From Myxococcota bacterium (GTDB lineage: Bacteria > Myxococcota_A > Bradymonadia > UBA7976 > UBA1532), in NCBI GenBank assembly GCA_963169045.1, contig CAUJDF010000071.1, forward strand, positions 1 to 64,000: 64,000 nucleotides of DNA, written 5' to 3'. Below the pieces are notes generated by a model. It did not search any database. It had not been told where the DNA came from and saw only the letters and a list, made by a program, of their open reading frames with translations. This document shows positions 1-63,642 of the stretch, one piece after another (within the stretch, counting starts at the first letter, position 1; each line of letters begins with the position of its first letter). The position numbers and the translations under genes are program-made.

Positions 1-282
1 CTTCTCCCTCGTCACGAACGTGGCGAGCGTCTTACCTGGTGCGATAGTCTCGGAGCGGGCCATGGTCCTGTTCTCATCGTTGGTGGTACTTCGAGAAGAT
101 CAGGATTCCTGGCCCATTTCAACACTTTACGTCGCCATCAAGCCGCTATCCGAACACGGATGAATGACCTTGCCGTCGTCTGCGCGAATTGCCACGCGAT
201 GATTCACCGAGGCCGCGAATCTCGACCGCTCGTTGGGTTGATTCCGAGCAGCCACGCCAAGAAAGCGGAGGAAGCGTCGTGA
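1..282 (+). pseudogene. HNH endonuclease remnant, frameshifted, cut by left edge
   Basis: From nt 154 to the stop at 280-282 one frame reads TRMNDLAVVCANCHAMIH and then a basic tail. This matches the second half of an HNH (McrA-like) nuclease domain, with the CxxCH pair and the final His. The segment that normally precedes it, IKPLSEHG, lies in the next frame at 137-160 and runs into TGA at 161. The simplest reading is a frameshift near 150-157. The His pair expected before IKPLS is Val-Ala here, so the first catalytic His also seems lost. The stretch is visibly less GC-rich than the rest of the window, which suggests acquired and decaying DNA. An intact gene reaching further left in the second frame cannot be excluded, but the two frames would still have to be joined. 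Confidence 0.6.
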
Positions 283-388
283 CCTCCTTCAGCTTGCCCG
301 CTGGTGACGGAACAGCCGTCGAACTGCCGGTTGCAACTGACGAGGTCGCTCCGGCTTTGCCTCCGCGTCCTCGCAGCTGAACGCCAAC

Positions 389-1111
389 GTGAGCGGGAAG
401 GTTCTTCTCCGCCCTGAACGGACGTGGCGCTCGCCGGGCGGGTCGTGTCATCGTGCGCCCGAGCGCGCTGCTGCGAGTTCCGTCGCGCGCCGCTGGCGCG
501 TTCATCTGGCAGTCCTGCTGATCGCGTCGCTCGGCGGCGCCGCGCTCGTGGCCGGTTCGGGGCGGTTCCAGGCGCTCGCCGCGTGGTGGACGGGCACCGT
601 GCTGCTGGCCTACGCGGCGGTCACCACGGTCGCGATGGCGCTGCTCGCCCGCCGCGCCTGGGCGCCCCTGCTCGTCCACGGAGGCACCGCCGCGCTCTGT
701 GCCGGCGTCTGGCTGGCGACGCGGACGCCCGACCCGGAGGCGGTTCGCCGCAGCCTGCGCGTCGAGCGCGTCGCGGTCGGATCACGGGGCCGCGGCGCCG
801 TCACGCTGGCGAACGATGGCGGCTTCCCGCTCACCATCGGGCGCGTCGTCGCCCGGGGCGCCGGCGGGGGCGATGCCATGCGGCGCCCGCGGGGAGCGCC
901 CGACGTGCGCCTCGAGCCGGGCGCGCGCGTCGATGTCGCGCTCGAGCGCGACGGTGACGAGGCGCCGCCGCCCGACTGGACGTGGACCGTCGAGTGCACC
1001 GTGCTCGCGCCGCAGGTCCTATCGCTCCGGACCTGCGCGCCCGGGGAGCAGGGCGACTGCCTCGCGATGCCCGCGCCCTCGGTCGCGCCCGGGGCCCCGC
1101 GGACGCGCTGA
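389..1111 (+). CDS. hypothetical membrane protein, three N-terminal TM segments
   Basis: I do not recognise the family. A GTG at 389 gives 240 residues. After a basic N-terminus of about 45 residues come three hydrophobic segments (roughly residues 46-65, 69-90 and 92-110). A soluble C-terminal half follows, with a beta-rich look (GAVTLANDGGFPLTIGRV), as in small exposed domains that resemble Ig or archaellum/pilus accessory folds, but that is only an impression. Two Cys near the C-terminus (in LRTCAPGEQGDCLAM) could form a disulphide on the outside. No clear Shine-Dalgarno supports the GTG, and the true start could lie nearer the first TM segment. The gene stands alone between the HNH remnant and a secreted protease. 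Confidence 0.55.
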   Translation: MSGKVLLRPERTWRSPGGSCHRAPERAAASSVARRWRVHLAVLLIASLGGAALVAGSGRFQALAAWWTGTVLLAYAAVTTVAMALLARRAWAPLLVHGGTAALCAGVWLATRTPDPEAVRRSLRVERVAVGSRGRGAVTLANDGGFPLTIGRVVARGAGGGDAMRRPRGAPDVRLEPGARVDVALERDGDEAPPPDWTWTVECTVLAPQVLSLRTCAPGEQGDCLAMPAPSVAPGAPRTR

Positions 1112-6054: not shown

Positions 6055-8583
6055 TCAGGGGCAGGACGGGAGGGACGCGATCCAGCGGCGGACGAGATCG
6101 GCGCCGGCCTCGTCGACGCGCAGGGTGGCGAGCGGGGGCATCTGGCCTTCGCCGCGACGGGTCATGCGGGCGTGCAGGACGCTGCGTTCCGGATCGCCCG
6201 GGGTGACGATGCGGGCGCCGGCGAGGCCGAGGTCGCCCTGGCCCGGCGCGTCGCACAGGCCCGTTTCGGCGAGCGGCGTGGCGGCGCGCAGATCGAGGCG
6301 GGCGTTGGCCGGGCCGCCGGGGGCGTGGCACATGGCGCAGTTGGCCTCGAGCAGCGCGCGGGCGCGGTCGGCGAGCGGCGCGGCGTCGTCGTCGGGCCGC
6401 GGGTGGGCGACGAGCGGGCCGTCGGGCACGCCGTCGACGTAGCCGGCGGCGGCGAGCGCGGCGACCTGGTCGTAGTCGACGCCGTCGAGGGACGAGGCGC
6501 GGGCGAGCTGGGACGTGCGCCAGCCGAGCGTGAAGCCGGCCGCCGGCGTGTGGCAGCGGTCGCACTCGGCGGGCGACGGGAAGTGCCAGTCGTCGGCGTC
6601 CAGCGCGCCGTCGAGCAGCTCGGCGTCGGTCTGCTCCGCGTTCCAGCGCCAGGTGTAGCCGTGCCAGCCGCTGGCGCCGCGCGTGATCAGGCGCGTCTCG
6701 AGGCGGCGCCCGTCGCGGATGAACGTCTTGAGGAGCACCGTGCCCACGGGCAGCTCCCAGGCGCCGTCGGCGCGGAACGTCGCGCGCGTGCCCGGCGGGA
6801 GCGCGATGAAGCGGGCCTTGTCGGCGCCGTCGCTCCACAGGGGCACGTTGACGTCGAACGGGACGACGCCGGGTGCGACGCGGTGCGCGGCCGTGTCGGC
6901 GAAGCACCCGGTCTCACTCAGCAATTGGGGCAGCGGCGGCGCCTCGGCGGGCTCGCGGCGGCGCAGCGTGAGCAGGCTGCGGCGCGCGCCGAAGCTCGTG
7001 AGGAGCACGCGGCCGGCGGCGTCCTCGCCGAAGCTCGTGATCTGGGCGCCCTGGGTCAGCAGCCGCACGTCGGGCGGGGCGTCGGGCCGTTCGCGCAGCG
7101 CCCAGACGCGCCCCGAGCCGTAGTCCGCGAACAGATAGGCGCCCCAGAGCTCCGGGAGGTCCGCGCCTCGATAGACGAGGCCGCCCGTGATCGACTGGCC
7201 CTGATCGTGGCCGTACGACCAGACCGGGTCGATCAGGCCCTCGCGCGCGCACTCCTGCGCCCGGTAGCAGCGCATGCCCTCGCGCACGTTCCAGCCGAAG
7301 TTGCCGGGGGCGGTGATCTTGTCGACCTCCTCCTCGCGGTCCTGGCCGACGTCGCCGACCCAGAGCGCGCCCGTCACCGCGTCGAAGCGCATGCGCCACG
7401 GGTTGCGCAGGCCCCACGCGTAGACCTCGGGACGGCCCTCGAGGCCGTCGGCGAACGGATTGCCGGGCGGGATGGCGTAGCGCGGCGGGCCCGCGTCGGG
7501 GTTGGGGCGCGGACCGCAGTCGGCGCAGTCGGTGCCGTAGAGGCAGACGTCGAACTGCGCGTCCTGCGCGCCGTCGTCGCACTCGCCGTCGGCCATGGAG
7601 CGGCACGAGTCGTCGCAGCGCTCGGCGGGCGGCTCGGCAGGGCGGGCGGGGGCGGCATCGACGTCGATGCGCAGGATCTTGCCCAGCGTCGAGAACGTGT
7701 CCTGGCCCTGGCGCAGCGGATCGCCGCCGCTGCCGCCGTCGCCCGAGGCGATGTAGAGGTGGCCGTCCGGGCCGAACTGCAGGTCGCCGCCGTTGTGGTT
7801 GCTGTACGGCTGCGGGAAGACGAGCAGGCGGCGCTCCTCGGGCTCGCCGCGGCGGCGCTCGGCGACGACGGAGCAGCGGCCGGCGCCGCCGGGGCACGTG
7901 TCGCGCGTGCCGGTGTAGTAGACGAAGAGGCGGCCGTTCTCGGCGTAGCGCGGGTGGAAGGCGAGGCCGAGCAGGCCCTCCTCGTTGCCGGCGCGGTTCA
8001 CGGCGAGGCGCAGAAACTCGTGGCGTTCGGCGACGTCGTCGCGCGCGTCGAAGGACCAGACGCGGCCGCCCTGCTCGGCGACGTAGAGCGTGCCGGGCTC
8101 GCCGGGGGCGGCGCCGACCCAGAGGGGGCGGTCGAAGTCGAGCGCCGGGAAGACCTCGGCGAGCTCGAGGTCGCCGAGCGGGACGTCGGGCAGGCGGCAG
8201 CCGAGGTTGGGCTGGCGCGGCGAGAGCGGGTTGCCGGGGAGCGCGACGCCCTGGTCCCAGGCGGCGGCGGCGTCCGGGGCGCCGGAATCTGGCGTGATTT
8301 CACCCATGTCGGACGCGGCGTCGGCCTCGGCGCGGGCGTCGGTCTCGACGCGGGCGTCGGCCTCGGCGCGGGCGTCAGACTCGGCGCGGGCGTCGGCCTC
8401 GACGCGGGCGTCGGCTTCGGCGCGGGCGTCGGGCGCCCCGTCGGCACCGACGCGCGCATCTGGGGCCTCGGCGTCCGGCGTCCGCGCGTCCGCCGCGGCC
8501 GCGTCCGGGTCCCCGTCGGCGCGCGGCGCGTCGTCGCACGCCGCGATCCCCACCACCAGGAGAGCGACCACCGTCTTGCGCAT
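6055..8583 (-). CDS. PQQ-type sugar dehydrogenase-like lipoprotein fused to dihaem domain
   Basis: 842 residues from ATG 8583, whose lipobox (VVGIAAC) follows at once. After an Asp-Ala repeat linker comes a six-blade propeller like soluble glucose/sorbosone dehydrogenase: GLLGLAFHPRYAENGRLFVYY, YSNHNGGDLQFGPDGHLYIASGDGG, GNPF, VYAWGLRNPWRMRFD and VGQDREEEVD. A Cys-rich insert near residues 322-352 (CDDSCRSMADGECDDGA...CLYGTDCADCG) resembles a Notch-type LNR calcium module. The C-terminal third has two haem sites, CDRCH (~675) and CAMCH (~748), as in dihaem cytochromes of the type that take electrons from such dehydrogenases. Inference: an outer-surface or periplasmic sugar or alcohol oxidase with built-in electron exit. 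Substrate unknown. Confidence 0.85.
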   Translation of the reverse strand: MRKTVVALLVVGIAACDDAPRADGDPDAAAADARTPDAEAPDARVGADGAPDARAEADARVEADARAESDARAEADARVETDARAEADAASDMGEITPDSGAPDAAAAWDQGVALPGNPLSPRQPNLGCRLPDVPLGDLELAEVFPALDFDRPLWVGAAPGEPGTLYVAEQGGRVWSFDARDDVAERHEFLRLAVNRAGNEEGLLGLAFHPRYAENGRLFVYYTGTRDTCPGGAGRCSVVAERRRGEPEERRLLVFPQPYSNHNGGDLQFGPDGHLYIASGDGGSGGDPLRQGQDTFSTLGKILRIDVDAAPARPAEPPAERCDDSCRSMADGECDDGAQDAQFDVCLYGTDCADCGPRPNPDAGPPRYAIPPGNPFADGLEGRPEVYAWGLRNPWRMRFDAVTGALWVGDVGQDREEEVDKITAPGNFGWNVREGMRCYRAQECAREGLIDPVWSYGHDQGQSITGGLVYRGADLPELWGAYLFADYGSGRVWALRERPDAPPDVRLLTQGAQITSFGEDAAGRVLLTSFGARRSLLTLRRREPAEAPPLPQLLSETGCFADTAAHRVAPGVVPFDVNVPLWSDGADKARFIALPPGTRATFRADGAWELPVGTVLLKTFIRDGRRLETRLITRGASGWHGYTWRWNAEQTDAELLDGALDADDWHFPSPAECDRCHTPAAGFTLGWRTSQLARASSLDGVDYDQVAALAAAGYVDGVPDGPLVAHPRPDDDAAPLADRARALLEANCAMCHAPGGPANARLDLRAATPLAETGLCDAPGQGDLGLAGARIVTPGDPERSVLHARMTRRGEGQMPPLATLRVDEAGADLVRRWIASLPSCP
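8314..8431 (-). repeat. 18-bp tandem repeat coding Glu-Ala-Asp-Ala-Arg linker
   Basis: About six imperfect copies of gcgtcggcctcggcgcgg (plus-strand reading). On the minus strand they code a repeated ADAR(A/V)E peptide. This is the charged tether between lipid anchor and propeller of the dehydrogenase fusion. Confidence 0.85.
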
Positions 8584-8590
8584 GGCGCCC

Positions 8591-8596
8591 ATCCTG
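8591..8596 (-). promoter_or_regulatory. possible -10 element (CAGGAT) of the dehydrogenase gene
   Basis: On the minus strand CAGGAT is followed by 7 bases and then the ATG, with no ribosome site between. It is the same near-leaderless layout as TAGGAT before apbE. Weak on its own. Confidence 0.3.
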
Positions 8597-8710
8597 CCGC
8601 GTCGAGGCCCACCCGCGCCATCGGGTCGCGGCGGCGCGGGCACCTCGCGCTCCCCGTCGGGTCGCGGCAGCCGTGACGCCGGCGCCGGGCGCTCGCGCGC
8701 CGCCGGCGGG

Positions 8711-10210
8711 TCAGCGCAGGCCGAACGCGGACATCTTGCGCTTCAGGGTGTTGCGGTCGACGGCGAGGGCGCGCGCGGCGGCCGAGAGGTTGCCGCGGTG
8801 TACGGCGAGAGCGTCGGCGACGGCGGCGCGCTCGGCGGCGGCGACGACCTCGGCGAGCGGCGCCACGCTGCCGGCGGACGGCGCCACGCTGCCGGCGAGG
8901 GACGCGCCGGCGGACGGCGTCGCGCTGCCGGCGAGGGGCGCGCCGGCGGACGGCAACCCGGCGGCGGGCGGCACCGCCGGCGCGCCGGCCGCGATCGCCG
9001 GCGACAGGTCGGCCAGGTCGACGACGTCGTCGCAGAACACCGTCCAGCGGCGGACCTCGGCGCCGAGCTCGCGCACGGTCCCCGGCCACGCGTAGGCCTG
9101 CAGCGCCTGCCACGCGCGCCGCGTGGGCTGCAGCCGGCGGCCCTCCGACGCGAGGAAGTGGGCCACGAGCAGCTCGAGGTCGCCCGCGCGTTCGCGCAGC
9201 GGCGGTACGCGCAGCGTCGCCCCCTCGAGCCGGTAGTAGAGGTCCTCGCGAAACTCGCCGCGTGCGACGAGCGCCGGCAGGTCGCGGTGGGTGGCGGCGA
9301 CGACGCGCACGTCGACCCGGACCGGCTGCTCGCCGCCGACGCGCCGCAGCACGCCCTCCTGCAGCACGCGCAGCAGCTGCACCTGCACGCGCGGCGGCAG
9401 CTCGCCCACCTCGTCGAGGAAGAGCGTCCCGCCGTGCGCCTGCTCGAACAGGCCGCGGTGCCGCCCCGTCGCGCCGGAGAACGCGCCCGCCTCGTGCCCG
9501 AACAGCTCGCTCTGCAGCACGCCCTCGGCGAACGCGCCGCAGTTCTCGGCCACGAACGGCCCCTCGGCGCGGTCGCTCGCCGCGTGGACCGCCCGCGCCA
9601 CGAGCTCCTTGCCCGTCCCCGTCTCGCCGAGCACCAGCACCGGCACCCGCGCCGCCCCCACGCGCGCCACGCGCTCCCGCAGCCGCCGCATCGCCGCGCT
9701 CTCGCCGACGAGCGTCCCCGCCAGCGCCGTCACGCGGGCCCGCAGCTGCACCACCTCGGCCCGCAGCGCCCGGATCTCGGGGAAGCCGTCGATGTCGAGC
9801 CGCACGGCCCGCACCGGCTCGGGGTGCGGGTGCGGCACGAAGCGCGGCGGGATCACCTGCAGCATGCGCGCGCGCAGCAGTCCGGCCTGCACGAGGATCA
9901 CCCAGATCGTCTGCGCCTGGGGCGTGCCGGCCGAGAGCAGCACGTCCACCTCGGCGTCGGGCGGCAGCGCCTCGACGACGGGGCCGACCGCCTTGAAGAG
10001 CGCGGCGTGGTCCGACGGATCGGGCACGTCGAGCACCTGCACCGAGCCGAAGCCCATCGCGCCGACGAGGGCGCGCGCGCCGGCACGGTCGCCGCGGTTG
10101 GTGAGCACGCGGGCGTCGTCGTAGCGCACGCCGCCGACGGCGAGCAGGCGCATGACCGGCCCCGGATCGCCCTGCTGGCCGGCGTGGGTCCACGTGAGGA
10201 GGAGGCGCAT
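8711..10210 (-). CDS. rtcR: RtcR-type sigma-54 activator with CARF-like sensor
   Basis: 499 residues in three parts. Residues 1-~185 are a Rossmann/CARF-like sensor ([12 protein letters not shown]..., then [18 protein letters not shown]), as in E. coli RtcR, which senses damaged-RNA ends. The AAA+ domain has [20 protein letters not shown] and a sigma-54 contact loop written GAFSGA, where the usual form is GAFTGA. An Ala/Pro/Ser-rich linker follows, then a Fis-type helix-turn-helix ending [11 protein letters not shown]. The gene is divergent from rtcB, as in the classical rtc locus, and its start codon lies at the edge of the 39-bp dyad, so it may regulate itself. Start: ATG 10210, where the sensor strand begins. 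A GATACAC run about 9 bases upstream of it may be its own -10. Confidence 0.92.
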
Positions 10211-51946: not shown

Positions 51947-53785
51947 GTGCCACACGGTGGCGCGCGGCTCCACGCGACGGAACGGCCGTTGCTCTTGCCG
52001 GGGAAGGTGGGGAGAAATCTCGTCATCGCCGTTGCGTCGGTGCTCGCGGTCGCCTGCGGCGAAGTCGCGACGACCGACGTGCGCCCGGGCGGCGTCCATC
52101 CCGCCGGGTGGGCCGACGCGCACGGCGCCGCGCTGCGGGCCGGCGGTCACGACCTCGACCCGTGTTATGCCTGCCATCGCGAGGGCGAAGAATCCTTCGT
52201 ATGCAATGAATGCCATACGAAGGGGCCCGAGTCCTGCGACACGTGCCACGCGACGCCGCCGCCGCCGCACGCCGCCCACGGCGACTACCCGTGCGGGACG
52301 TGCCACGTCGTGCCCGGCGGGCTGCGGGCGCCCGGCCACCTGCAGGACCGCGGCCCCGGCGACGTGCGCTTCGCGGGGGGGCTCGCGGGCAGCGCCGCCG
52401 CCTTCAACGGCGAGACGTGTAGCGATACGCGCTGCCACGCCGGCCCCGGGGCGGCCCTGCCCACCCCCGCCTGGGCGCCGCGCGAGATCGCCTGCGGCGA
52501 CTGCCACTCGTCGCCGCCGCCCGAGCACCCGCAGGACCGCTGCGATCGCTGCCACACCGGCGGCGGCGGCGACGGTCACGTCGACGGGCGCGTCGCGGTG
52601 AACGACGCGCGCCGCGACGGCTGCGACGCCTGCCACGGCGCCGCCGGCGATCCCGCCCCCCCGCCGGGCCTCTCCGGATCGAGCGACCCCGCCGATCCCG
52701 GCGTCGGCGCGCACCTCGCGCACCTGCGGCCCGCGCAGTCGGCCCCCGTCGCCTGCGAGACGTGCCACGTGGTCCCGCGCCGCCCCACCGATCCCGGACA
52801 CCTCGACGGGGTCACCCAGGTCCTCGTCGGACGGTACGCCGCCGGCACCTGCGCCGACACCGGCTGCCACGGGTCGGACCGGCCCACGTGGACGGGCGAG
52901 GCGCCGTGCGGCTCGTGCCACGGGACGCCGCCCGCGGGGCACCCGGCCGGCGACTGCGCCCGCTGCCACCTGACGGCGGCCCCCGGCGGCGGCATCGCCC
53001 TGCCGGCGGCCCACGTCGACGGCCGCGTCGACGCCGGCGGCGAAGACTGCGCCGCGTGCCACGGCGACGGCGGGCGCGTGCCGCCCGGCGGCAGTCACGC
53101 CGCCCACGCCCGCTACGCGTGCGCGACCTGCCACCCGGCGGGCACGCACCTCGACGGCGCGGCGCAGGTCGCGATCGCCGCGGGCGGCACGTTCGAGCGC
53201 GGGCGCTGCGCCGACGCCGCGTGCCACGGCCCGAACCGCCCCGTCTGGGGCCGCGCCGAGACGGTCGAGGGCTGCGGGTCGTGCCACGGCGCCCCGCCCG
53301 CGGACCACCCCGAAGGCGCGTGCGCGACGTGCCACCCGGCCGAGCGCCACGCCGACGGGCGCCTCGACGTCGCGCTGCCCGAGGACTGCGGCGCGTGCCA
53401 CCTCGCCGAACCCGTGAGCGGCGCCCACGCCGCCCACCGCGCCGGGACGCGCGCCGCGGTCGTGCCCTGCGGCACCTGCCACCGCGTCCCCGAGCGCCCC
53501 GACGCGCCCGGTCACCTCGACGCCGCGCCGGTCGAGGTCGTGCTCGCCACCGGCGTCGTGCGCGACGGCACGTGCGCCGACACCGCGTGTCACGCCCAGC
53601 CCGGCGCGGGCCGCCCCGCACCGGCGTGGACCGACGGTCCGCAGGCGTGCGACGCCTGCCACGGCCTGCCGCCGCCCGCCCACTGGACGTTCCCCTGCGC
53701 GACGTGCCACTCGGCCGTCGTCGACGCCGACAACCGCATCATCGCCCCGGCGCGCCACGCCGACGGCCGGGTGGATCTGCGATGA
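51947..53785 (+). CDS. multihaem c-type cytochrome lipoprotein (CxxxxCH/CxxCH type)
   Basis: 612 residues with 18 CxxCH and 4 CX4CH motifs (CSDTRCH, CADTGCH, CADAACH, CADTACH), the mix seen in Geobacter-type CxxxxCH/CxxCH cytochromes. Motifs repeat in blocks, each with a C(A/S)DxxCH followed by GSCHGxPPxxHP. Lipobox ASVLAVAC follows a long N-region when read from GTG 51947; GTG 52007 (VGRNLVIAVASVLAVAC) would give a standard signal, so the start is uncertain. Expected outside the inner membrane, probably at the outer membrane. It is the first gene of the operon and its stop overlaps the porin gene start (ATGA). Confidence 0.9.
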   Translation: MPHGGARLHATERPLLLPGKVGRNLVIAVASVLAVACGEVATTDVRPGGVHPAGWADAHGAALRAGGHDLDPCYACHREGEESFVCNECHTKGPESCDTCHATPPPPHAAHGDYPCGTCHVVPGGLRAPGHLQDRGPGDVRFAGGLAGSAAAFNGETCSDTRCHAGPGAALPTPAWAPREIACGDCHSSPPPEHPQDRCDRCHTGGGGDGHVDGRVAVNDARRDGCDACHGAAGDPAPPPGLSGSSDPADPGVGAHLAHLRPAQSAPVACETCHVVPRRPTDPGHLDGVTQVLVGRYAAGTCADTGCHGSDRPTWTGEAPCGSCHGTPPAGHPAGDCARCHLTAAPGGGIALPAAHVDGRVDAGGEDCAACHGDGGRVPPGGSHAAHARYACATCHPAGTHLDGAAQVAIAAGGTFERGRCADAACHGPNRPVWGRAETVEGCGSCHGAPPADHPEGACATCHPAERHADGRLDVALPEDCGACHLAEPVSGAHAAHRAGTRAAVVPCGTCHRVPERPDAPGHLDAAPVEVVLATGVVRDGTCADTACHAQPGAGRPAPAWTDGPQACDACHGLPPPAHWTFPCATCHSAVVDADNRIIAPARHADGRVDLR

Positions 53786-54972
53786 AGGCCCCCCTCACCC
53801 TCGGAGCGCTCTGCGCGGCGATCGCGTCGGGCGGGCTCGCCGCCGCGGAGCCCGCGGCCGCGCCCGCCGGCGAGGTCGTCGCGCGCACGAGGCTCTGGCT
53901 GCGCCTCGATCCGCGCGCCGACGACGCGATCGGCAGCGTGTCGGTGGCGGCGCGCGGCGACGTCGACGCCGAGGCGAGCGCGTGGATCGCGGGGTGGCCG
54001 CGCGACGAGGGCGATCCGGTCACCGGCGACGTGCGGACGCTCTTCGTGCGCGACACGTTCGGGCCGGCCTGGGTGGCGATCGGCCGGCAGTGGACGGCGA
54101 TCGGCGGGCTGCGGCTCGAGACGTTCGACGGCGCGACGGCCGGCATCGGCTGGGATCCCGTGGCCGTGCGCGCCCGCGCGGGCCTCGCGCGCCCCGACGA
54201 GGGGCCCGGTTTCGGCGACGCGCTGCTCGCCGCGGCCGAGGCGGCGGTGACCGCCGGCGACGTGTCGGCCACCGTCGGCGCGAGCCTCGAGCGCGCCACC
54301 GACGTGGCGCCCCGCGGCCGCTGGACGCTCGCCGCCGACTGGGTGCCCTCCGCCGACTTCACCGCCCGCGCCGGCGCCACCGCCGACGCCGCCGCGCGCG
54401 CGCTCGTCGAGGCGCGGATCGAGGTCGGCGCCCGTCCGCTGGATTACGTGTGGATCCGCGGCTTTGCGCGACGCACGCACCTCGACCGCCTGCTCGGCGC
54501 CGACGAGATCCTCAGCGCGTTCGCCGTCGCCGAAGCCGAGAACGAGGCGGGCGGCGTCGCCGAGTGGCGCGTGGTCGAGGCGGTCTCGGTCCGCGGCGAG
54601 GGCGCGGCGCTGGGCCCGGCCGAGAGCCGCTGGCGCACGGGCGTCGACGTGCGCCCCGCGGCCGGCGCGTGGGTCGGCGGCGAGGGCACGCTCCTGCTCG
54701 ACCACGACGGCCGCACCGCCATCGCCCGCGCCGGCACCCGCTGGCCGCTCGTCGCGACGCTCTTCGGCACCGCCGATCTCGTGGTCGCCGAGGGCGACGA
54801 CGCGTGGACGCGCACCGGCCGCCTCGGCCTCGGCCTGACGCCCTGGGAGGACTGGACGCTGTTCGGCGCCTTCGAAGCGGAGCGATCCATCGCGTGGCGC
54901 GAGCGCTACGCCGGCCTGGTGCTGCTCGAGTACGCGCTCGGCGCGCCCACCCGCTTCGGAGGCATCCCGTGA
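53782..54972 (+). CDS. outer-membrane beta-barrel, porin of the cytochrome conduit
   Basis: 396 residues with a Sec signal (TLGALCAAIASGGLAAAE). The rest is alternating strands with aromatic ends and short turns (WVAIGRQWTAIGGLRLETFDG; WTLAADWVPSADFTARAGATAD; WVGGEGTLLLDHDGRTAIARAGTRW) and ends in a short tail after ALGAPTRFG. No haem motif. It is embedded between two multihaem genes with ATGA and GTGA overlaps. That order is what porin-cytochrome complexes (MtrB or OmbB type) show: the porin houses a cytochrome that crosses the outer membrane. It is shorter than MtrB (~700), so fewer strands are expected; I count room for about 16-20. Confidence 0.75.
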   Translation: MKAPLTLGALCAAIASGGLAAAEPAAAPAGEVVARTRLWLRLDPRADDAIGSVSVAARGDVDAEASAWIAGWPRDEGDPVTGDVRTLFVRDTFGPAWVAIGRQWTAIGGLRLETFDGATAGIGWDPVAVRARAGLARPDEGPGFGDALLAAAEAAVTAGDVSATVGASLERATDVAPRGRWTLAADWVPSADFTARAGATADAAARALVEARIEVGARPLDYVWIRGFARRTHLDRLLGADEILSAFAVAEAENEAGGVAEWRVVEAVSVRGEGAALGPAESRWRTGVDVRPAAGAWVGGEGTLLLDHDGRTAIARAGTRWPLVATLFGTADLVVAEGDDAWTRTGRLGLGLTPWEDWTLFGAFEAERSIAWRERYAGLVLLEYALGAPTRFGGIP

Positions 54973-55979
54973 AGCGCCTCCTGCCGCTGCTGCTGCTCGC
55001 CGCGTGCGCCTCCGAGACGCGCGCCCCGCGCGAGGCGGGCGTGGGGCACGTGGCGCACGCGCGCGCCGGCGTGCACTGCACCCGCTGCCACGGCGACCTG
55101 GCCGTCGGTCCGGCGCCGCACCTGCCCGACGACGCCACCTGCGCCGGCTGCCACGCCGAGGCGCACCCCGGCCAGGAGAACCGCGCCTGTACGGCGTGCC
55201 ACGTCGACGCCGACGCCCGCGCCACGCTCGTCACCGCGGCGGCGGCGATGCGCTTCGACCACGCGCGCCACCTGCCCGAGGTGCGCGGCGACTGCGTCGG
55301 GTGCCACCGCGGCGCCGTGCGGCCCGACGTCGAGCACCCGAGCGGACTGCCGGCGATGAACGACTGCCGCCCCTGCCACGACGACCTGCTCGACCGCGGG
55401 ACGTGCGACGCGTGCCACGTCTCGCTCGCGCAGTACCCGGTGCGCCCGGCCACCGGCATGGCCCACGCCGCCGACTTCCTGCGCCGGCACGCGCTCGAGG
55501 CGCGCGTCGCCCAGGACCGCTGCGCGTCGTGCCACACGCAGTCGTCGTGCGCCGACTGCCACGACCAGCGCGCGCCGCTCGCGCCCGACGTGGCGTTCGC
55601 GGACCGCCCGGACCGCGCCTTCGTGCACCGGCCCGGCTACGTCGGCTGGCACGCCGGCGAGGCCCGTCTCGACGGCGCCGCCTGCCTGGGCTGCCACGGC
55701 GAGTCGTCGTGCGCCGCGTGCCACGCGCAGCGGCTGCCCGCCGGCTCGCCGCACCCCGCCGACTGGGCCTCGCCCGGTCCCGGTCCGAACCTGCACGCCG
55801 CCGCCGCCCGCCGCGATCTGATGGCCTGCGCCGGGTGCCACACGGGATCGGGCGGCGACACGTGCGTCGCGTGCCACGCGTCGGGGCGCCCCGGCGGCTC
55901 CCCGCACGGCGGCGCCCGGCCCGCCGGCGATCCGACGCGCGACCGGCCGTGCCGCGCCTGCCACGGAGGTGCGCCGTGA
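54969..55979 (+). CDS. 13-haem c-type cytochrome lipoprotein
   Basis: 336 residues from GTG 54969, whose GTGA overlaps the porin stop. Lipobox LLLLLAACAS puts the lipid at Cys13. There are 13 CxxCH motifs, some paired closely (CASCHTQSSCADCH; CLGCHGESSCAACH), as in compact haem wires. The mature part has almost no other domain. Placed after the porin gene, it is a candidate for the cytochrome inserted in or docked to the porin, on the periplasmic side. Confidence 0.92.
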   Translation: MKRLLPLLLLAACASETRAPREAGVGHVAHARAGVHCTRCHGDLAVGPAPHLPDDATCAGCHAEAHPGQENRACTACHVDADARATLVTAAAAMRFDHARHLPEVRGDCVGCHRGAVRPDVEHPSGLPAMNDCRPCHDDLLDRGTCDACHVSLAQYPVRPATGMAHAADFLRRHALEARVAQDRCASCHTQSSCADCHDQRAPLAPDVAFADRPDRAFVHRPGYVGWHAGEARLDGAACLGCHGESSCAACHAQRLPAGSPHPADWASPGPGPNLHAAAARRDLMACAGCHTGSGGDTCVACHASGRPGGSPHGGARPAGDPTRDRPCRACHGGAP

Positions 55980-57988
55980 TCCGCCGGCTGCTGCGGCGCT
56001 ACCGCAAGTTCCTGCTCATCGCCGGCGCGGCGAGCGTGATCATCGGCGCGCCCATCGCCTACAAGGCGCACGACTACATCCAGAACGACCCGAACTTCTG
56101 CACGTCGTGCCACATCATGGACGACGCCTTCAGCCGCTGGTCCGAGAGCGGCCACAAGGACGTCAACTGCCACACGTGCCACCCCGGCGATCTCGCCAGC
56201 AACCTGCACCAGGTCTGGGTGACGTTCACCTCCGACCAGAGCACGGTGAAGAAGCACGCCCACGTGCCCGCGGAGATCTGCGGGCAGTGCCACCTGTCGA
56301 ACGACCCGAAGTGGAAGCAGATCGCGGAGACCGCCGGCCACAAGCTGCACTTCGGGCAGCTCGGCGTGCAGTGCGTGACGTGCCACGCCGCCGAGATCCA
56401 TCAGTTCCGGCCGACCGACGAGATGTGCAAGGGGTGCCACTACACGCAGACCGTCGGGCTGACGGCCATGCAGCGCAACCACTGCACGTCGTGCCACGAC
56501 TTCCTCGGGCCGGTGGCCGCGGGGCTGCGGCCGGACAACGCGAAGTGCGGCGAGTGCCATGCCCAGGGCATCGACGGCGCGCCGGCGCTCGCCACGGGCT
56601 GGCACGACGGCGTCGCGTGCGGTGACTGCCACCCCGTGCACGACCCGGCGATGAACTCCGACGAGGCGCCGACGCGCGACGGCGCCGCGCGTCCCTGCGC
56701 CGAGTGCCACGCCGACGTCCCCGATCCCACGTTCGTGTTCGGCGGGGAGGACGCGTCGCGGTCGCGGACGGCGAAGGCGGCCGGCGGACGGGCGGGCGCC
56801 GCCCGGGGCCGCGGCGCGCGCAGCGGCCTGCCGGGCGAGGGCCACGACCGCTGCGCCTCGTGCCACGTGCCGCACTCCGCGGTGTCGCCGGTGGAGCGGT
56901 GCCGCGACTGCCACGTCGACGCCGCGGCGCGCCTGCCCGTCGACGGGCCGCACGTCTGCACCGACTGCCACGTGGCGCACGAGCCGGACGTCGACCCGCG
57001 CGACCGCTGCGACGACTGCCACCGTCCGGCGCAGGCGCTCGCCGCCGCCACGCCGGTCGCCGAGCACCGCGACTGCGTCAACTGCCACGAGGCGCATGCG
57101 CCGGGCCCGCCCGACGCGCCCGCGTGCGCCAACTGCCACGCGGACGAGGCCCGGCTCGCGCGCGCCGGCGGCCCCGCCGCCCACCAGCAGTGCGCGGGCT
57201 GCCACAAGGTCCACGCGCCGGAGTCGCCGCGCCGCTGCGCCAGCTGCCACGGCGAGCCCACCGCGGCCGACGCGCCCCCCGCGCACCGCGACTGCGACAA
57301 CTGCCACCGTCCGCACGGATCGCCGCTCGCCGGCGAGGCGAAGTGCGCGGAATGTCACGCAAATCCGGTGCAGCAGGCCGCGCTCGGCCCGCGGGAGCAC
57401 GGCCGCTGCGGCGACTGCCACACGGCCCACGATCCGACGCCGGTGCCCGGCGACACCTGCGCCGGCTGCCACACGGTCCGGACCGACGCGCCGCACGCGG
57501 ACTGCACCTCGTGCCACCCGCGCCACGACCGCCGTCCGCCGGCGGCCCTGTGCGCCGGCTGCCACGCCGAGAAGGTCCAGCGCGGCATCCCGGCGGGCCA
57601 CGCCGACTGCACCGGCTGCCACGCGCCGCACCGCGTCTCCCCCGAGGGCGCGTGCGCCGCCTGCCACGCCGGCCCGGCGGCGGGCGCCCGCACCGCGGCC
57701 CGGCCCGAGCACCGCGAGTGCGCGAGCTGCCACGGCGACGCGCACGGCCGGGCCGCGCCGTCCTGCAAGGACTGCCACGCCGACGCCACGAGCACCGGAT
57801 TGCACGCCGTGGAGGCGCACCGCGACTGCGCGGGCTGCCACGGCGACCACCCGCCCCGGCCGGCGCCGGCGCGGATCTGCCTCGATTGCCACGACATGGA
57901 TCGCATCGCGCGCCATCCCCCGGAGGCGCGCGGGGTCACGACGTGTTCGGGTTGCCACAACTTCCGGGGGAAGGGAGAGGGACGATGA
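55976..57988 (+). CDS. 30-haem NapC/NirT-anchored cytochrome
   Basis: 670 residues from GTG 55976 (GTGA overlap with the stop before it; GGAGG 6 bases upstream). The N-terminus is a single TM helix (YRKFLLIAGAASVIIGAPIAY), followed by NDPNFCTSCHIMDDAF, the NapC/NirT signature of quinol-oxidising anchors. The first nine CxxCH (residues ~41-245) form the NapC/NrfH-like and spacer part. After a low-complexity linker (~255-285) come about 21 further CxxCH motifs in an array of about 17-23-residue repeats (C..CHxxHxP). In total 30 haems. It would take electrons from menaquinol and hand them across the periplasm. I know no named family combining both parts. Confidence 0.9.
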   Translation: MIRRLLRRYRKFLLIAGAASVIIGAPIAYKAHDYIQNDPNFCTSCHIMDDAFSRWSESGHKDVNCHTCHPGDLASNLHQVWVTFTSDQSTVKKHAHVPAEICGQCHLSNDPKWKQIAETAGHKLHFGQLGVQCVTCHAAEIHQFRPTDEMCKGCHYTQTVGLTAMQRNHCTSCHDFLGPVAAGLRPDNAKCGECHAQGIDGAPALATGWHDGVACGDCHPVHDPAMNSDEAPTRDGAARPCAECHADVPDPTFVFGGEDASRSRTAKAAGGRAGAARGRGARSGLPGEGHDRCASCHVPHSAVSPVERCRDCHVDAAARLPVDGPHVCTDCHVAHEPDVDPRDRCDDCHRPAQALAAATPVAEHRDCVNCHEAHAPGPPDAPACANCHADEARLARAGGPAAHQQCAGCHKVHAPESPRRCASCHGEPTAADAPPAHRDCDNCHRPHGSPLAGEAKCAECHANPVQQAALGPREHGRCGDCHTAHDPTPVPGDTCAGCHTVRTDAPHADCTSCHPRHDRRPPAALCAGCHAEKVQRGIPAGHADCTGCHAPHRVSPEGACAACHAGPAAGARTAARPEHRECASCHGDAHGRAAPSCKDCHADATSTGLHAVEAHRDCAGCHGDHPPRPAPARICLDCHDMDRIARHPPEARGVTTCSGCHNFRGKGEGR

Positions 57989-60126
57989 AACGCTGGTTGA
58001 CCGCGAGCGTCGCGCTGCTCGCGCTCGCCTGCGAAGGTCCGACGGGATCGCGCGGACCGCAGGGCGAGCAGGGCGAGCCCGGGGCCGAAGGTGAGCCCGG
58101 CCAGCAGGGCCCGCAAGGTCCGCAAGGGGACGAAGGCGACCCCGGCGGCGCGGGCGGACGCGGCGAGCAGGGCGAGGACGGGCCGCAGGGCCCCGCGGGC
58201 GAGGACGGCGAGCCCGGCGCGCCGGGCGAGCAGGGCGAGCAGGGCGAGCAGGGTCCGGAGGGGCCGCAGGGTCCCGGCGGCGAGGACGGCGACGACGGCG
58301 CCGACGGCCGCAGCGCGCTCTTCACCGACGAAGAGGTGATCGTGGTCGTCGACTCGGTCGACGTCGACGAAGCCGGCCGCCCGATCGTGATGTTCCGCCT
58401 GACCGACGGCGACGACAAGCCGCTCGACCGCACCGGCACCTACACCGAGGGCGTCGTCGACCTCGCGTACACGCTGGCCGTCTACAACGCCGACGACACG
58501 TGGACGAGCTACATCACCCGCGAGGCCCGCGCCGGTCAGGTCGTCACGCAGCAGGCGACGAGCGAGAACAACGGCGCGCTCGAGCCCCTCGAGTTCGGCC
58601 AGTACATGTACACCTTCGCGACCGCGCTGCCCGCCGAGGCGGATCGCGAACGGCCGCACCGCATCGTCATCGGCGCGCGGCGCACGCTGCAGGACGGCGC
58701 CCGCACCGGCTCCTCGACCGCCGTCGACTTCGTCCCGTCGAGCGACGAGGTGCCGGTCGTGCCGCCGAACGTGGACGTCGACAACTGCAACGCGTGCCAC
58801 CGCGGCCTCGAGGGCCACGGCGGCCGCTGGACGGACACGACCGCCTGCGTGACGTGCCACACGGCGCAGACGATCGACCCGGACACCAACAACTCGGTGC
58901 GCTTCGACATCATGGTCCACCGCATCCACGCCGGCGCGAACCTGCCGAGCGTCCAGGGCGGCGAGCCCTACCAGATCATCGCCCGCGGCACGGTCCACGA
59001 CTTCTCGAACGTCGTGTTCCCGCGGCGCCTGGCCGACTGCAACGCCTGCCACGTCGAGGGCAAGCCGGGCGGCGCCGAGGTCACCTCGTGCACGTCGTGC
59101 CACGACCGCACCGCGTTCGGCCAGCAGGTCCCCGACGGCTGGACGCGCCACCTCGCCGGCCCGCAGCCCGAGGACCGCTGCGCCGCCTGCCACCCCGCCG
59201 ACGCGCCGTCGCCGGGCGTGTGGGACGCGCACCGCGCGCCGCTGCTCGACCCCGCGCTCGAGCTTGCGGGCCTGCGCACGGAGATCCTCGGGGTCGACGG
59301 CGCGGCGGCCGGCGCGGCGCCGACCGTGCGCTTCCGCCTGCTCGACGGCGCCGGCCAGCCCGTCGATCCGGCGCGCCTCGACAGCCTCGAGGTCACGGTC
59401 GCCGGCCCGGTGCCGGACTTCTCGTGGACGGTGACCAACGGCGGCGTGCAGGCGCGCGTGGTGGCCGACGGCGACGCGCTCGCGGTGCCGCTGGCGAATC
59501 CGATCCCGGCGGACGCCACGGGCACCGTCGCCGTGGGCATGGTCGCGTACCGCTACGTGCCCTACGGCTCGGGGCGCAACGACTCGATCGGCCGCGAGAC
59601 GGGCGGCAATCCGGTCGCCTACGTCGCGCTCGGCGAGGGCGCCGCCGCACGGCCGCGCAACGAGGTCGAGCTGGCGAAGTGCAACGCCTGCCACGGCGAG
59701 CTGGCGCTGCACGGCGGCTCCCGCAAGGAGATCGCGTACTGCCAGGAGTGCCACCACCAGAATGCGACCGACGTCGCGCGCCGTCCCGCGGATCAGGGCC
59801 CCCCGGCGAGCATCGAGCTCGGGCCGATGGTGCACGGCATCCACGCCGGCCACATGCGCGAGAACGGGCTCGTGATTTACGGCTTCGGCAACTCGCGGCA
59901 CGACTTCGGGCACGTCGCGTTCCCCGGCGCGCTGAATGACTGCGGCGCCTGCCACACCGGCAGCGGCTGGACGGATCCGTCGACGAAGATGTGCACGAGC
60001 TGCCACGACAGCAGCGACGCGAAGGCCCACGCCGCGCTCGAGACGGCGCCCGACGGCACCGAGGCCTGCGGCGTCTGCCACGGCCCGGGCCGCGAGTTCG
60101 CCGTCGACGTGCTTCACGCCCGCTGA
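57985..60126 (+). CDS. decaheme OmcA/MtrC-like surface cytochrome on a collagen-like stalk
   Basis: 713 residues from ATG 57985 (ATGA overlap). Lipobox ALLALAC puts the lipid at Cys16. Residues 18-110 are 31 uninterrupted Gly-X-Y triplets (GPQGEQGEP-like), a collagen-like stalk rich in Pro, Glu and Gln. The rest is an OmcA/MtrC-family decaheme cytochrome: a split beta domain (LFTDEEVIVVVDSVDVDEAG...), then CNACHRGLEGHGGRW with five haems (CxxCH at CNACH, CVTCH, CNACH, CTSCH, CAACH), a second beta domain, and five more (CNACH, CQECHH, CGACH, CTSCH, CGVCH), ten in total. MVHRIHAGANLP and MVHGIHAGH mark the two pentahaem halves. Terminal surface electron donor by analogy with MtrC/OmcA. Confidence 0.93.
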   Translation: MKRWLTASVALLALACEGPTGSRGPQGEQGEPGAEGEPGQQGPQGPQGDEGDPGGAGGRGEQGEDGPQGPAGEDGEPGAPGEQGEQGEQGPEGPQGPGGEDGDDGADGRSALFTDEEVIVVVDSVDVDEAGRPIVMFRLTDGDDKPLDRTGTYTEGVVDLAYTLAVYNADDTWTSYITREARAGQVVTQQATSENNGALEPLEFGQYMYTFATALPAEADRERPHRIVIGARRTLQDGARTGSSTAVDFVPSSDEVPVVPPNVDVDNCNACHRGLEGHGGRWTDTTACVTCHTAQTIDPDTNNSVRFDIMVHRIHAGANLPSVQGGEPYQIIARGTVHDFSNVVFPRRLADCNACHVEGKPGGAEVTSCTSCHDRTAFGQQVPDGWTRHLAGPQPEDRCAACHPADAPSPGVWDAHRAPLLDPALELAGLRTEILGVDGAAAGAAPTVRFRLLDGAGQPVDPARLDSLEVTVAGPVPDFSWTVTNGGVQARVVADGDALAVPLANPIPADATGTVAVGMVAYRYVPYGSGRNDSIGRETGGNPVAYVALGEGAAARPRNEVELAKCNACHGELALHGGSRKEIAYCQECHHQNATDVARRPADQGPPASIELGPMVHGIHAGHMRENGLVIYGFGNSRHDFGHVAFPGALNDCGACHTGSGWTDPSTKMCTSCHDSSDAKAHAALETAPDGTEACGVCHGPGREFAVDVLHAR
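58036..58314 (+). repeat. collagen-like Gly-X-Y repeat of the surface cytochrome
   Basis: A 9-base-period coding repeat (ggcgagcag, ggcccgcag and variants), 31 triplets without interruption. It should form a trimeric triple helix or at least an extended stalk. Confidence 0.9.
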
Positions 60127-61185: not shown

Positions 61186-61402
61186 ACTCGAAGCCGCTTC
61201 CCAAGGGCGCGCCTCAGGCCGCACGCGCTCGAGATGCCCGTCTTCTAAGGACGCCCCTCAGGACGCACTCCTAAGGGCGCCCCTCAGGACGCACCCGCTC
61301 GAGGTCCCCGCTTCCTAAGGGCGCCCCTCAGGACGCACCCGCTCGAGGTCCCCGCTCCCTGAGGGCGCCCCTTGGCCCGCACGCGCTCGACGTGCCCGCG
61401 GT
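61146..61402 (+). repeat. degenerate ~44-bp tandem repeat array
   Basis: Two nearly identical full units lie at 61271-61314 and 61315-61358 (one difference), a diverged full unit at 61359-61402, another at 61200-61244, a truncated one at 61245-61270, and weaker traces back to 61146. Each unit has the palindrome GGGCGCCC (or close), then CAGGACGC and CTCGAG. No coding frame fits. With the flanking sequence it fills the 439-base gap between the glycosidase and TetR genes. Confidence 0.75.
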
Positions 61403-62599: not shown

Positions 62600-63613
62600 T
62601 CAGGGCGCTGCGGCGGCCTTGCAGCGGCAGGTGTTCATCTTCTCGGCCCGCGCCTTCGCCCAGGCCCGCAGCGCGTCGACCTGCGCGGGATCCTCGGCGG
62701 TGAACGTCACGCGTGCGCCGCCCTCGACGTCCTCGACCTGACGCTTCGCCGCGGGGGCGGCGGCGTGGCCGCGGCCGTGCTTGCACGCGCAGGCGCCGTC
62801 GGCCTTGCCGGCGCAGTGCGGGCAGGCGCACGCCTCGCCCGCGCCCTGCTTGCACGCGCAGGCGCCGGCGGCCTTGCCGGCGCAGTGCGGGCAGGGACCG
62901 CCCGCGGCGGCCTTGCCGGCGCAGTGCGGGCAGGGCGCAGCCGCGCCGTCCTGACCGGCGACATGCGCGCCGTGGGCCCCGTCCTTGCCTGCGCCGTGCG
63001 GGCAGGGCGCAGCTGCGCCCGCGCCGTGCTTGCACGCGCACGCCGCGCCGTCGGCCTTGCCCGCGCAGTGCGGACACGCGCACGCCTCGCCCGCCGCGTG
63101 CTTGCAGGCGCAGCCGCCGGCAGCCTCCGACGCGCCCTGCTTGCAGGTGCAGCCGCCCGCGCCCTTGCCGGTGCACGGACCGCAGGCGCAGGCCTCACCC
63201 TCGCCGTGCTTGCAGGCGCACGCCGCGGGCGCGCCGCCCTCGGCGCCGTGGCCGTGGTGCGCGCCGCCGGCCGCCTTGCCGGCGCAGTGCGGGCACCCGC
63301 CGGCGCCGTGGTGCGCGCCGCCTCCGGCGAACATCGGCATCTCGACGACGGCCCGGACGCGGCGGCGCAGCTCGTCGACCTGCGCCGCTTCGGTCGTGGT
63401 GAAGGTGATCGTCGCGCCCCCCTCGGCGTCGGCGGCGGCGACCGCGACCGCAGGCAACGACATCGGGCAGATCGCGCACATCGGCCCGTGGCCGGGCTGC
63501 GTCGCGGCGGACTGCTGCGTCGCGGGCTGGCTCGCCGGTGCCTCGGCGCTCTTCGGGGCGCCGCCGCACGCGGCGAGCAGCAGGGCGATCGAAAGGAAGG
63601 CCAGACGACTCAT
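62600..63613 (-). CDS. Cys/His-rich metallothionein-like lipoprotein
   Basis: 337 residues from ATG 63613 (GAGGAGAG about 8 bases upstream); lipobox ALLLAAC, Cys16. Near the N-terminus ADAEGGATITFTTTEAAQVD and near the C-terminus DVEGGARVTFTAEDPAQVDA are two copies of one ~40-residue motif. The ~200 residues between them are tandem Cys/His repeats (CPHCAGKA, CACKHGAGEACACPHC), with some 30 Cys in total plus His and Lys. No CxxCH haem motif dominates; CPHC is the standard metal-chelating form. Likely a periplasmic or surface sponge for copper, zinc or similar ions. Convergent with the TetR-cupin operon, 2 bases apart. Confidence 0.82.
   Translation of the reverse strand: MSRLAFLSIALLLAACGGAPKSAEAPASQPATQQSAATQPGHGPMCAICPMSLPAVAVAAADAEGGATITFTTTEAAQVDELRRRVRAVVEMPMFAGGGAHHGAGGCPHCAGKAAGGAHHGHGAEGGAPAACACKHGEGEACACGPCTGKGAGGCTCKQGASEAAGGCACKHAAGEACACPHCAGKADGAACACKHGAGAAAPCPHGAGKDGAHGAHVAGQDGAAAPCPHCAGKAAAGGPCPHCAGKAAGACACKQGAGEACACPHCAGKADGACACKHGRGHAAAPAAKRQVEDVEGGARVTFTAEDPAQVDALRAWAKARAEKMNTCRCKAAAAP
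62760..63315 (-). repeat. Cys/His-coding repeat in the metallothionein-like gene
   Basis: About six imperfect copies of a segment coding CPHCAGKA, interleaved with CxCKHGxG coding units. The nucleotide repeat gccttgccggcgcagtgcgg (plus-strand reading, 20 bases) recurs several times, so copy number may vary between strains. Confidence 0.8.
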
Positions 63614-63642
63614 CGGGTTCTCTCCTCGACTCACGACGTTTC

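Follow-up and report, generated by a model that had tools for sequence, protein, structure and literature searches.

Collagen-like stalks of variable length on OmcA/MtrC-family decaheme cytochromes of Myxococcota

What does an uninterrupted collagen-like tract do between the putative lipid anchor and the redox head of a multiheme cytochrome? The question is raised by a gene located in a 64,000-nucleotide stretch of Myxococcota DNA (contig CAUJDF010000071.1 of assembly GCA_963169045.1), hereafter called the window. The gene and the parts of its product are listed below by window coordinates.

57985..60126, forward strand: decaheme cytochrome gene of the OmcA/MtrC family, 713 residues (open reading frame; TIGR03507 332.3 bits, cut-off 209.3).
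57985..58032, forward strand: lipoprotein signal peptide predicted by motif reading, lipobox ALA-C, Cys16 codon at 58030-58032.
58036..58314, forward strand: collagen-like stalk, 31 uninterrupted Gly-X-Y triplets, net charge -19 (tract count; Pfam Collagen 47.6 bits).
58315..60123, forward strand: decaheme head, MtrC/OmcA four-domain fold, 10 CXXCH (motif count; AlphaFold head pLDDT mostly >90; OmcA Z 24.7 over 543 residues).

The reading frame opens with an ATG that overlaps the stop of the upstream gene by 4 bases (ATGA). A hydrophobic signal (...LLALA-C) ends at Cys16, residues 18-110 form the stalk, and the remaining 603 residues carry the ten CXXCH motifs. The protein passes the curated NCBIfam cut-off of TIGR03507, which assigns it to the OmcA/MtrC family, and PF22113 (MtrC/MtrF domain II/IV) matches two stretches of the head. 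The stalk scores well above the cut-off of PF01391 (27.2 bits), and thus has the uninterrupted Gly-X-Y pattern, detected by Pfam Collagen, by which bacterial collagen-like proteins are recognised. A sequence-only reading of this DNA had given the same coordinates, triplet count and Cys position, all of which are correct, and its succession of lipid-anchor motif, collagen-like stalk and OmcA/MtrC head is backed by the lipobox and by the PF01391 and TIGR03507 scores. Family, operon and lipobox motif suggest that the protein is anchored in the outer membrane and exposed at the surface; family and operon likewise point to a redox role. Chance low complexity is ruled out as the source of the tract: when its residues were shuffled 20,000 times, the longest Gly-X-Y run reached a maximum of 12 triplets (mean 4.0). 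Runs in the two alternative forward frames do not exceed 1 and 6 triplets. Short tandem DNA repeats are found within the stalk-coding tract.

A single-chain AlphaFold2 model, built with 48 relatives, contains 365 head residues at pLDDT >=90. The domains follow each other in the order beta, heme, beta, heme, and reproduce the alternation of beta and multiheme domains of the MtrC fold. The best PDB match is OmcA (Foldseek E 9e-29; Z 24.7, 543 residues, 4.5 A), followed by UndA (Z 21.8) and MtrC (Z 18-19); MtrF is also matched. Residues 1-111, corresponding to signal and stalk, have no confident structure in this single-chain model, and no trimerisation domain is seen between stalk and head. The alignment to MtrC begins at model residue 113-114, just past the stalk, which corresponds to MtrC residue 44-45. 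Since the MtrC chains 8qc9 and 4lm8 span positions 45..670 with 626 residues, everything before residue 45, including a short Gly-X-Y stub, is unresolved in those crystals.

The decaheme gene is preceded by four genes of the same operon.

51947..53785, forward strand: CxxxxCH/CxxCH multiheme lipoprotein, 18 CXXCH and 4 CX4CH, no Gly-X-Y tract (TIGR01904 70.7 bits, cut-off 27).
53782..54972, forward strand: probable outer-membrane porin, 396 residues, signal peptide, no heme motif; function suggested by its place between cytochrome genes.
54969..55979, forward strand: 13-CXXCH lipoprotein cytochrome, no Gly-X-Y tract (sequence).
55976..57988, forward strand: 30-CXXCH cytochrome, N-terminal membrane segment (weak NrfH-like start, 39.6 bits, under the cut-off of 134.2).

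The operon order is thus 22-heme lipoprotein, probable porin, 13-heme lipoprotein, 30-heme membrane-anchored cytochrome and, last, the decaheme protein; no Gly-X-Y run longer than 3 triplets occurs in the remaining cytochrome frames. As to MtrA/MtrB-type partners, a porin-sized gene, the product of which matched no Pfam family, and multiheme genes adjoin the decaheme gene. The 30-CXXCH cytochrome is likely the quinol-side entry. It has 670 residues, and the same heme count is found in genomes G008 and G011; it may be of sufficient length to span the periplasm. Between genes downstream of the operon, at 61199-61399, the window contains tandem repeats, the units of which measure 70 and 44 bases. 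A lipoprotein-like 344-residue reading frame (62600-63634, reverse strand) contains numerous repeats rich in Cys and His, such as CACKHG and CPHCAGKA; it is possibly metal-binding, and no Pfam match over cut-off was found in it.

All five genes are present in three other genomes. In G008 and G011 they are arranged in identical order and are 41-59% identical; in G009 they are split, with the 22-heme and decaheme genes sharing a strand and the remaining three on the opposite one. Stalks consist of 32 triplets in G008, 36 in G011 and 42 in G009, while heads are 51-54% identical. The sequence-only reading had allowed for an assembly artefact and for absence of the stalk from close homologues with the same operon. 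The former is ruled out, as the stalks of this gene differ between independent genomes that share the operon; the latter is not what is observed, the stalk being present in 3/3 genomes with all five genes.

The same reading knew of no characterised OmcA/MtrC protein with such a stalk, a claim that holds for length only. In the PDB sequences, a short Gly-X-Y stub follows the lipid Cys in Shewanella OmcA (GGSDGKDGEDGKPG), in UndA, where the letters are the same (GGSDGKDGEDGKPG), and in MtrC (CGGSDGNNGNDGSDGG); a short stub is also found in S. baltica MtrC (6r2q, GCGGSDGNDGNPGEPGG). All four stubs consist of 4-5 triplets and begin no more than two or three residues past the lipid Cys. OmcA, UndA and MtrC share with the decaheme protein of the window both Gly-X-Y after the lipid Cys and the four-domain multiheme fold, but here the tract has 31 triplets, passes the Pfam Collagen cut-off and belongs to a different operon. 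As the stalk sits where MtrC and OmcA carry their 4-5 triplet tether, it is best read as the expansion of an old short tether and not as an invention.

Other known systems resemble the decaheme protein in part. Streptococcal Scl1/Scl2 and Legionella Lcl share the collagen tract, although their NCBIfam models score weakly on the stalk (49.5, 50.9 and 44.4 bits against cut-offs of 325-500); they are adhesins, and their anchors and heads differ. These adhesins are charge-balanced and have trimerising head domains. According to the available excerpts of PMC7682875, Bucl8 of Burkholderia is likewise an outer-membrane lipoprotein of a Gram-negative bacterium, and the repeat number of its surface collagen region varies; in contrast to the decaheme protein, it is a TolC-like trimer in which an uncharged (GAS)n collagen region lies past the channel domains, and it has no heme. 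Geobacter PgcA is also an extracellular cytochrome, and its proline-rich structure was examined by CD; it differs in being a small triheme protein of another family, for which no lipid-anchored Gly-X-Y stalk is reported in the excerpts available (PMC5732950). In the literature library searched, no paper joining decaheme cytochromes with collagen was found; in their accessible parts, papers containing both words leave them unlinked.

Stalks turned out to be common in Myxococcota, with short forms in Shewanella and Geomonas, and the decaheme protein of the window is thus not unique in this respect. An OmcA/MtrC match over the cut-off is present in 74/377 genomes of the phylum. The survey covered, among the matches listed, 104 reading frames from 75 Myxococcota genomes, 102 of them over the TIGR03507 cut-off and 2 (L216 and L217) under it; 13 touch the locus edge at the 5' end. 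Among the matches listed, 91 reading frames have a complete 5' side, and 78 of these (57/65 genomes) carry a run of at least 6 triplets before the head; runs reach at least 10 triplets in 57, at least 20 in 27 and at least 30 in 15. If the Cys is preceded by a Gly, the count exceeds the true run by one triplet. A lipobox, called by a motif rule and not by SignalP, was recognised in 82 reading frames (again among the matches listed), and 76 of these have at least 3 triplets adjoining the Cys. Cys-to-head runs of at least 6 triplets are present in 72/82, of at least 10 in 54 and of at least 20 in 24. The first Gly lies two residues past the Cys in 75/95 cases with a run of at least 3. No run of 6 or more was found inside the surveyed heads (67,691 residues).

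Modules of two kinds, CFSR (collagen-flanked surface repeat, PF19079) and DUF7151, occur in some homologue stalks. For instance, in L205, L177 and other homologues, N-termini alternate short collagen runs with two-Cys repeats (CFSR) or DUF7151; such stalks are possibly disulphide-bearing rods.

Outside the phylum, 75 reading frames from named genomes were counted, 5/80 loci having been dropped as duplicates. A lipobox is present in 32/75, 18 of which have at least 4 triplets next to the Cys and none more than 10; the 43 without a recognised lipobox, mostly from Acidobacteriota, include none with at least 4. Tracts of 5-10 triplets occur, for example, in named genomes of Geomonas oryzae, Cognaticolwellia, Shewanella abyssi, Thioalkalivibrio, Ramlibacter and Geothrix, while other members of these lineages have none. 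The association of lipobox with Gly-X-Y is strong in raw counts, with both present in 90 proteins, both absent in 42 and mixed cases numbering 16 and 6, but loses significance when relatedness is taken into account (median p 0.25). A scan of viral contigs with the whole protein as query returned 80 loci, which match mainly the N-terminal collagen part and are uninformative on cytochromes. A tblastn search of plasmids gave no match to the decaheme protein.

The tracts vary in length and keep their period. Against 2,211 tract triplets stand only 5 triplets that lack Gly without loss of phase and 6 shifts of phase; 3 of the former and 1 of the latter are situated at the head border. Gly is almost never lost, which indicates that the three-residue periodicity is selected. 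Third bases of Gly codons have an entropy of 1.47 bits in the stalk of the window and a mean of 1.35 bits over 31 tracts; since they vary, the Gly is ancient and has been retained. Zero entropy at the first two bases of Gly codons follows from the way in which runs are defined, and the loss count is the fairer test. When the label "run of 15 or more" was placed on a FastTree phylogeny of 166 heads, in which one doubtful long-branch join is flagged, 19 changes were required, at least 14 of which are forced by well-supported branches. The tree left out 13 named loci (5 duplicates and 8 incomplete or oddly read), rows with fewer than 9 CXXCH and heads shorter than 450 residues. The 19 changes, together with the kept Gly, show that stalk length shifts often while the three-residue period stays.

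A lipid Cys followed by collagen is also found in an unrelated family of octaheme lipoproteins, with 12-32 triplets in 6/6 genomes with a complete N-terminus. Octaheme genes adjoin or lie near decaheme genes in G011, G009, G055, G056 and G263, and are present in G005 as well. The stalked octaheme loci, several of which are beside decaheme genes, are L300:1574-3847, L299 (about 6674-9139), L304, L303/L221, L158 and L312. The G011 copy bears carboxypeptidase-regulatory-like domains; the G006 copy has no tract, its reading frame opening past that part. Matches at E <=1e-40 in 3/377 genomes, obtained with one query protein and three candidates per genome, do not constitute a frequency estimate. 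The display of cytochromes on stalks seems to be a recurrent trait of these bacteria and not the accident of one gene.

Whether the stalk may be triple-helical depends in part on its charge. It contains 22 Asp/Glu and 3 Arg/Lys residues, and proline occurs in 0.45 of its triplets, a fraction that is near zero in some homologues. Charge pairing of the kind that stabilises Hyp-free helices (KGE/KGD/RGE), which is typical of bacterial collagens without strictly defining them, is lacking, as only one [KR]G[DE] pair is found in the 31 triplets. The 31 long cytochrome tracts (928 triplets) have a summed net charge of -454, 29/31 being at -5 or lower, and contain 39 [DE]G[DE], 24 [KR]G[DE] and 27 [DE]G[KR] neighbours. 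In contrast, ten other collagen reading frames of the same genome (279 triplets) have a summed net charge of -12; they contain 22 [KR]G[DE] neighbours, and [DE]G[DE] is absent from them. This contrast makes the cytochrome stalks a chemically distinct class. Collagen matches in the genome number 29, and nine lacking a locus were left out; in L045, a collagen-matching reading frame, no tract was found by the script. L049 (G000:C4:78452-78598), a probable lipoprotein, differs from the other collagen proteins in that its mature part consists of 35 triplets of a Gly-Gly-X-like kind (GAGGAGGQGG...).

What argues most strongly against a simple triple helix here is a like-charge rule given in the available excerpts of PMC7824840, by which peptides of 30 residues do not assemble into homotrimers if they carry at least five like charges; the same excerpts report that KGE/KGD pairs stabilise collagen helices. 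Opposed to the charge argument are the strict Gly spacing, the length, and two precedents: hydroxyproline-free bacterial collagens of 75-237 residues, which melt at 23.5-35.6 C (PMC7824840, excerpts), and Bucl8, the proline-free (GAS)n region of which is triple-helical by CD in the portions of PMC7682875 available. A triple helix in the decaheme stalk is putative and possible, with the chances about evenly divided; in the 4-9 triplet stubs of other phyla it is unlikely. As 19 Bucl8 triplets measure 163 A (PMC7682875, excerpts), 31 triplets would extend over ~26.6 nm, so that the ~25 nm proposed from the sequence is right if the stalk is triple-helical.

Such a length bears on the electron path. 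A head held rigidly 26 nm off could not receive electrons by tunnelling, and a swinging tether, a tilted stalk or a relay of neighbouring cytochromes would therefore be needed; a rigid 25-nm trimer would struggle to receive electrons. In MtrCAB, MtrC contacts the conduit directly.

The explanation that we favour, with a probability of about 0.7 for the whole and for its stalk/tether function, is that the decaheme protein would act at the cell surface as the terminal cytochrome of an electron conduit through the outer membrane. The stalk would be a length-tunable polyanionic spacer by which the head extends through lipopolysaccharide or another surface layer and may swing back and forth from the exit of the conduit to acceptors outside. 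Where stalks are long, three chains would, at about even odds, wind into a collagen triple helix; the trimer may be aided by lipid co-anchoring or by divalent cations, and could form a three-headed unit up to ~26 nm tall.

A serious contender, rated below even chances, is that the stalk is a single-chain polyanionic tether, i.e., an extended polyproline-II-like linker that never trimerises and leaves the head mobile to dock on the porin conduit, as MtrC does. The stalk is unstructured in the AlphaFold model, the MtrC stub is unresolved in crystals, [DE]G[DE] neighbours abound in cytochrome tracts (39 in 928 triplets versus 0 in 279 of the other collagens), like charges bar homotrimers of 30-mers in the excerpts of PMC7824840, and a mobile head would resolve the electron-path problem. 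However, a plain linker needs no Gly at every third place, whereas Gly is almost never lost in the 2,211 triplets while its third base varies.

The proposal that the acidic stalk is an arm binding positively charged oxides, cations or basic cytochromes is improbable, and compatible with the favoured spacer rather than exclusive of it. Polyacidity is kept in 29/31 long tracts and absent from the ten other tracts of the genome, and bacterial collagens bind ligands, as Bucl8 binds fibrinogen (PMC7682875, excerpts). The charge pattern could nonetheless serve solubility alone.

It is quite improbable that the tract is a generic outer-membrane lipoprotein linker, grown by repeat slippage and devoid of functions beyond sorting. 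The short tandem DNA repeats and the frequent length changes on the tree would suit such a linker, and lipoprotein sorting is said to require flexible linkers. Yet the tract is missing from two further lipoproteins encoded in the operon, Gly is conserved, and a lipobox precedes the tract in only 1/12 other collagen reading frames inspected in the genome, namely the headless Gly-Gly-X protein L049. That the stalk is a type II secretion export signal is very unlikely: Shewanella outer-membrane cytochromes exit by this route (PMC6929479, excerpts) and the genome encodes GspD (534 bits), but MtrF lacking residues 22-182 is still secreted, the C-terminus mattering most (PMC6929479, excerpts), and a length range of ~4 to 48 triplets is unlike a signal.

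A wider extension of the favoured spacer model is doubtful. In Myxococcota, at least two unrelated surface multiheme families might stand in threes on tunable polyanionic triple helices that assemble only with divalent cations or at a mineral surface, jointly forming a flexible redox brush ~10-40 nm deep that would carry electrons past the outer membrane without nanowires.

The stalk also corrects the picture of MtrC and OmcA, the short Gly-X-Y stub of which seems to mark the lower end of this series of lengths. Stalk length can be altered within one gene with the redox head left unchanged. A length-variable stalk on a well-studied head makes it testable how terminal cytochromes pass lipopolysaccharide and other surface layers.
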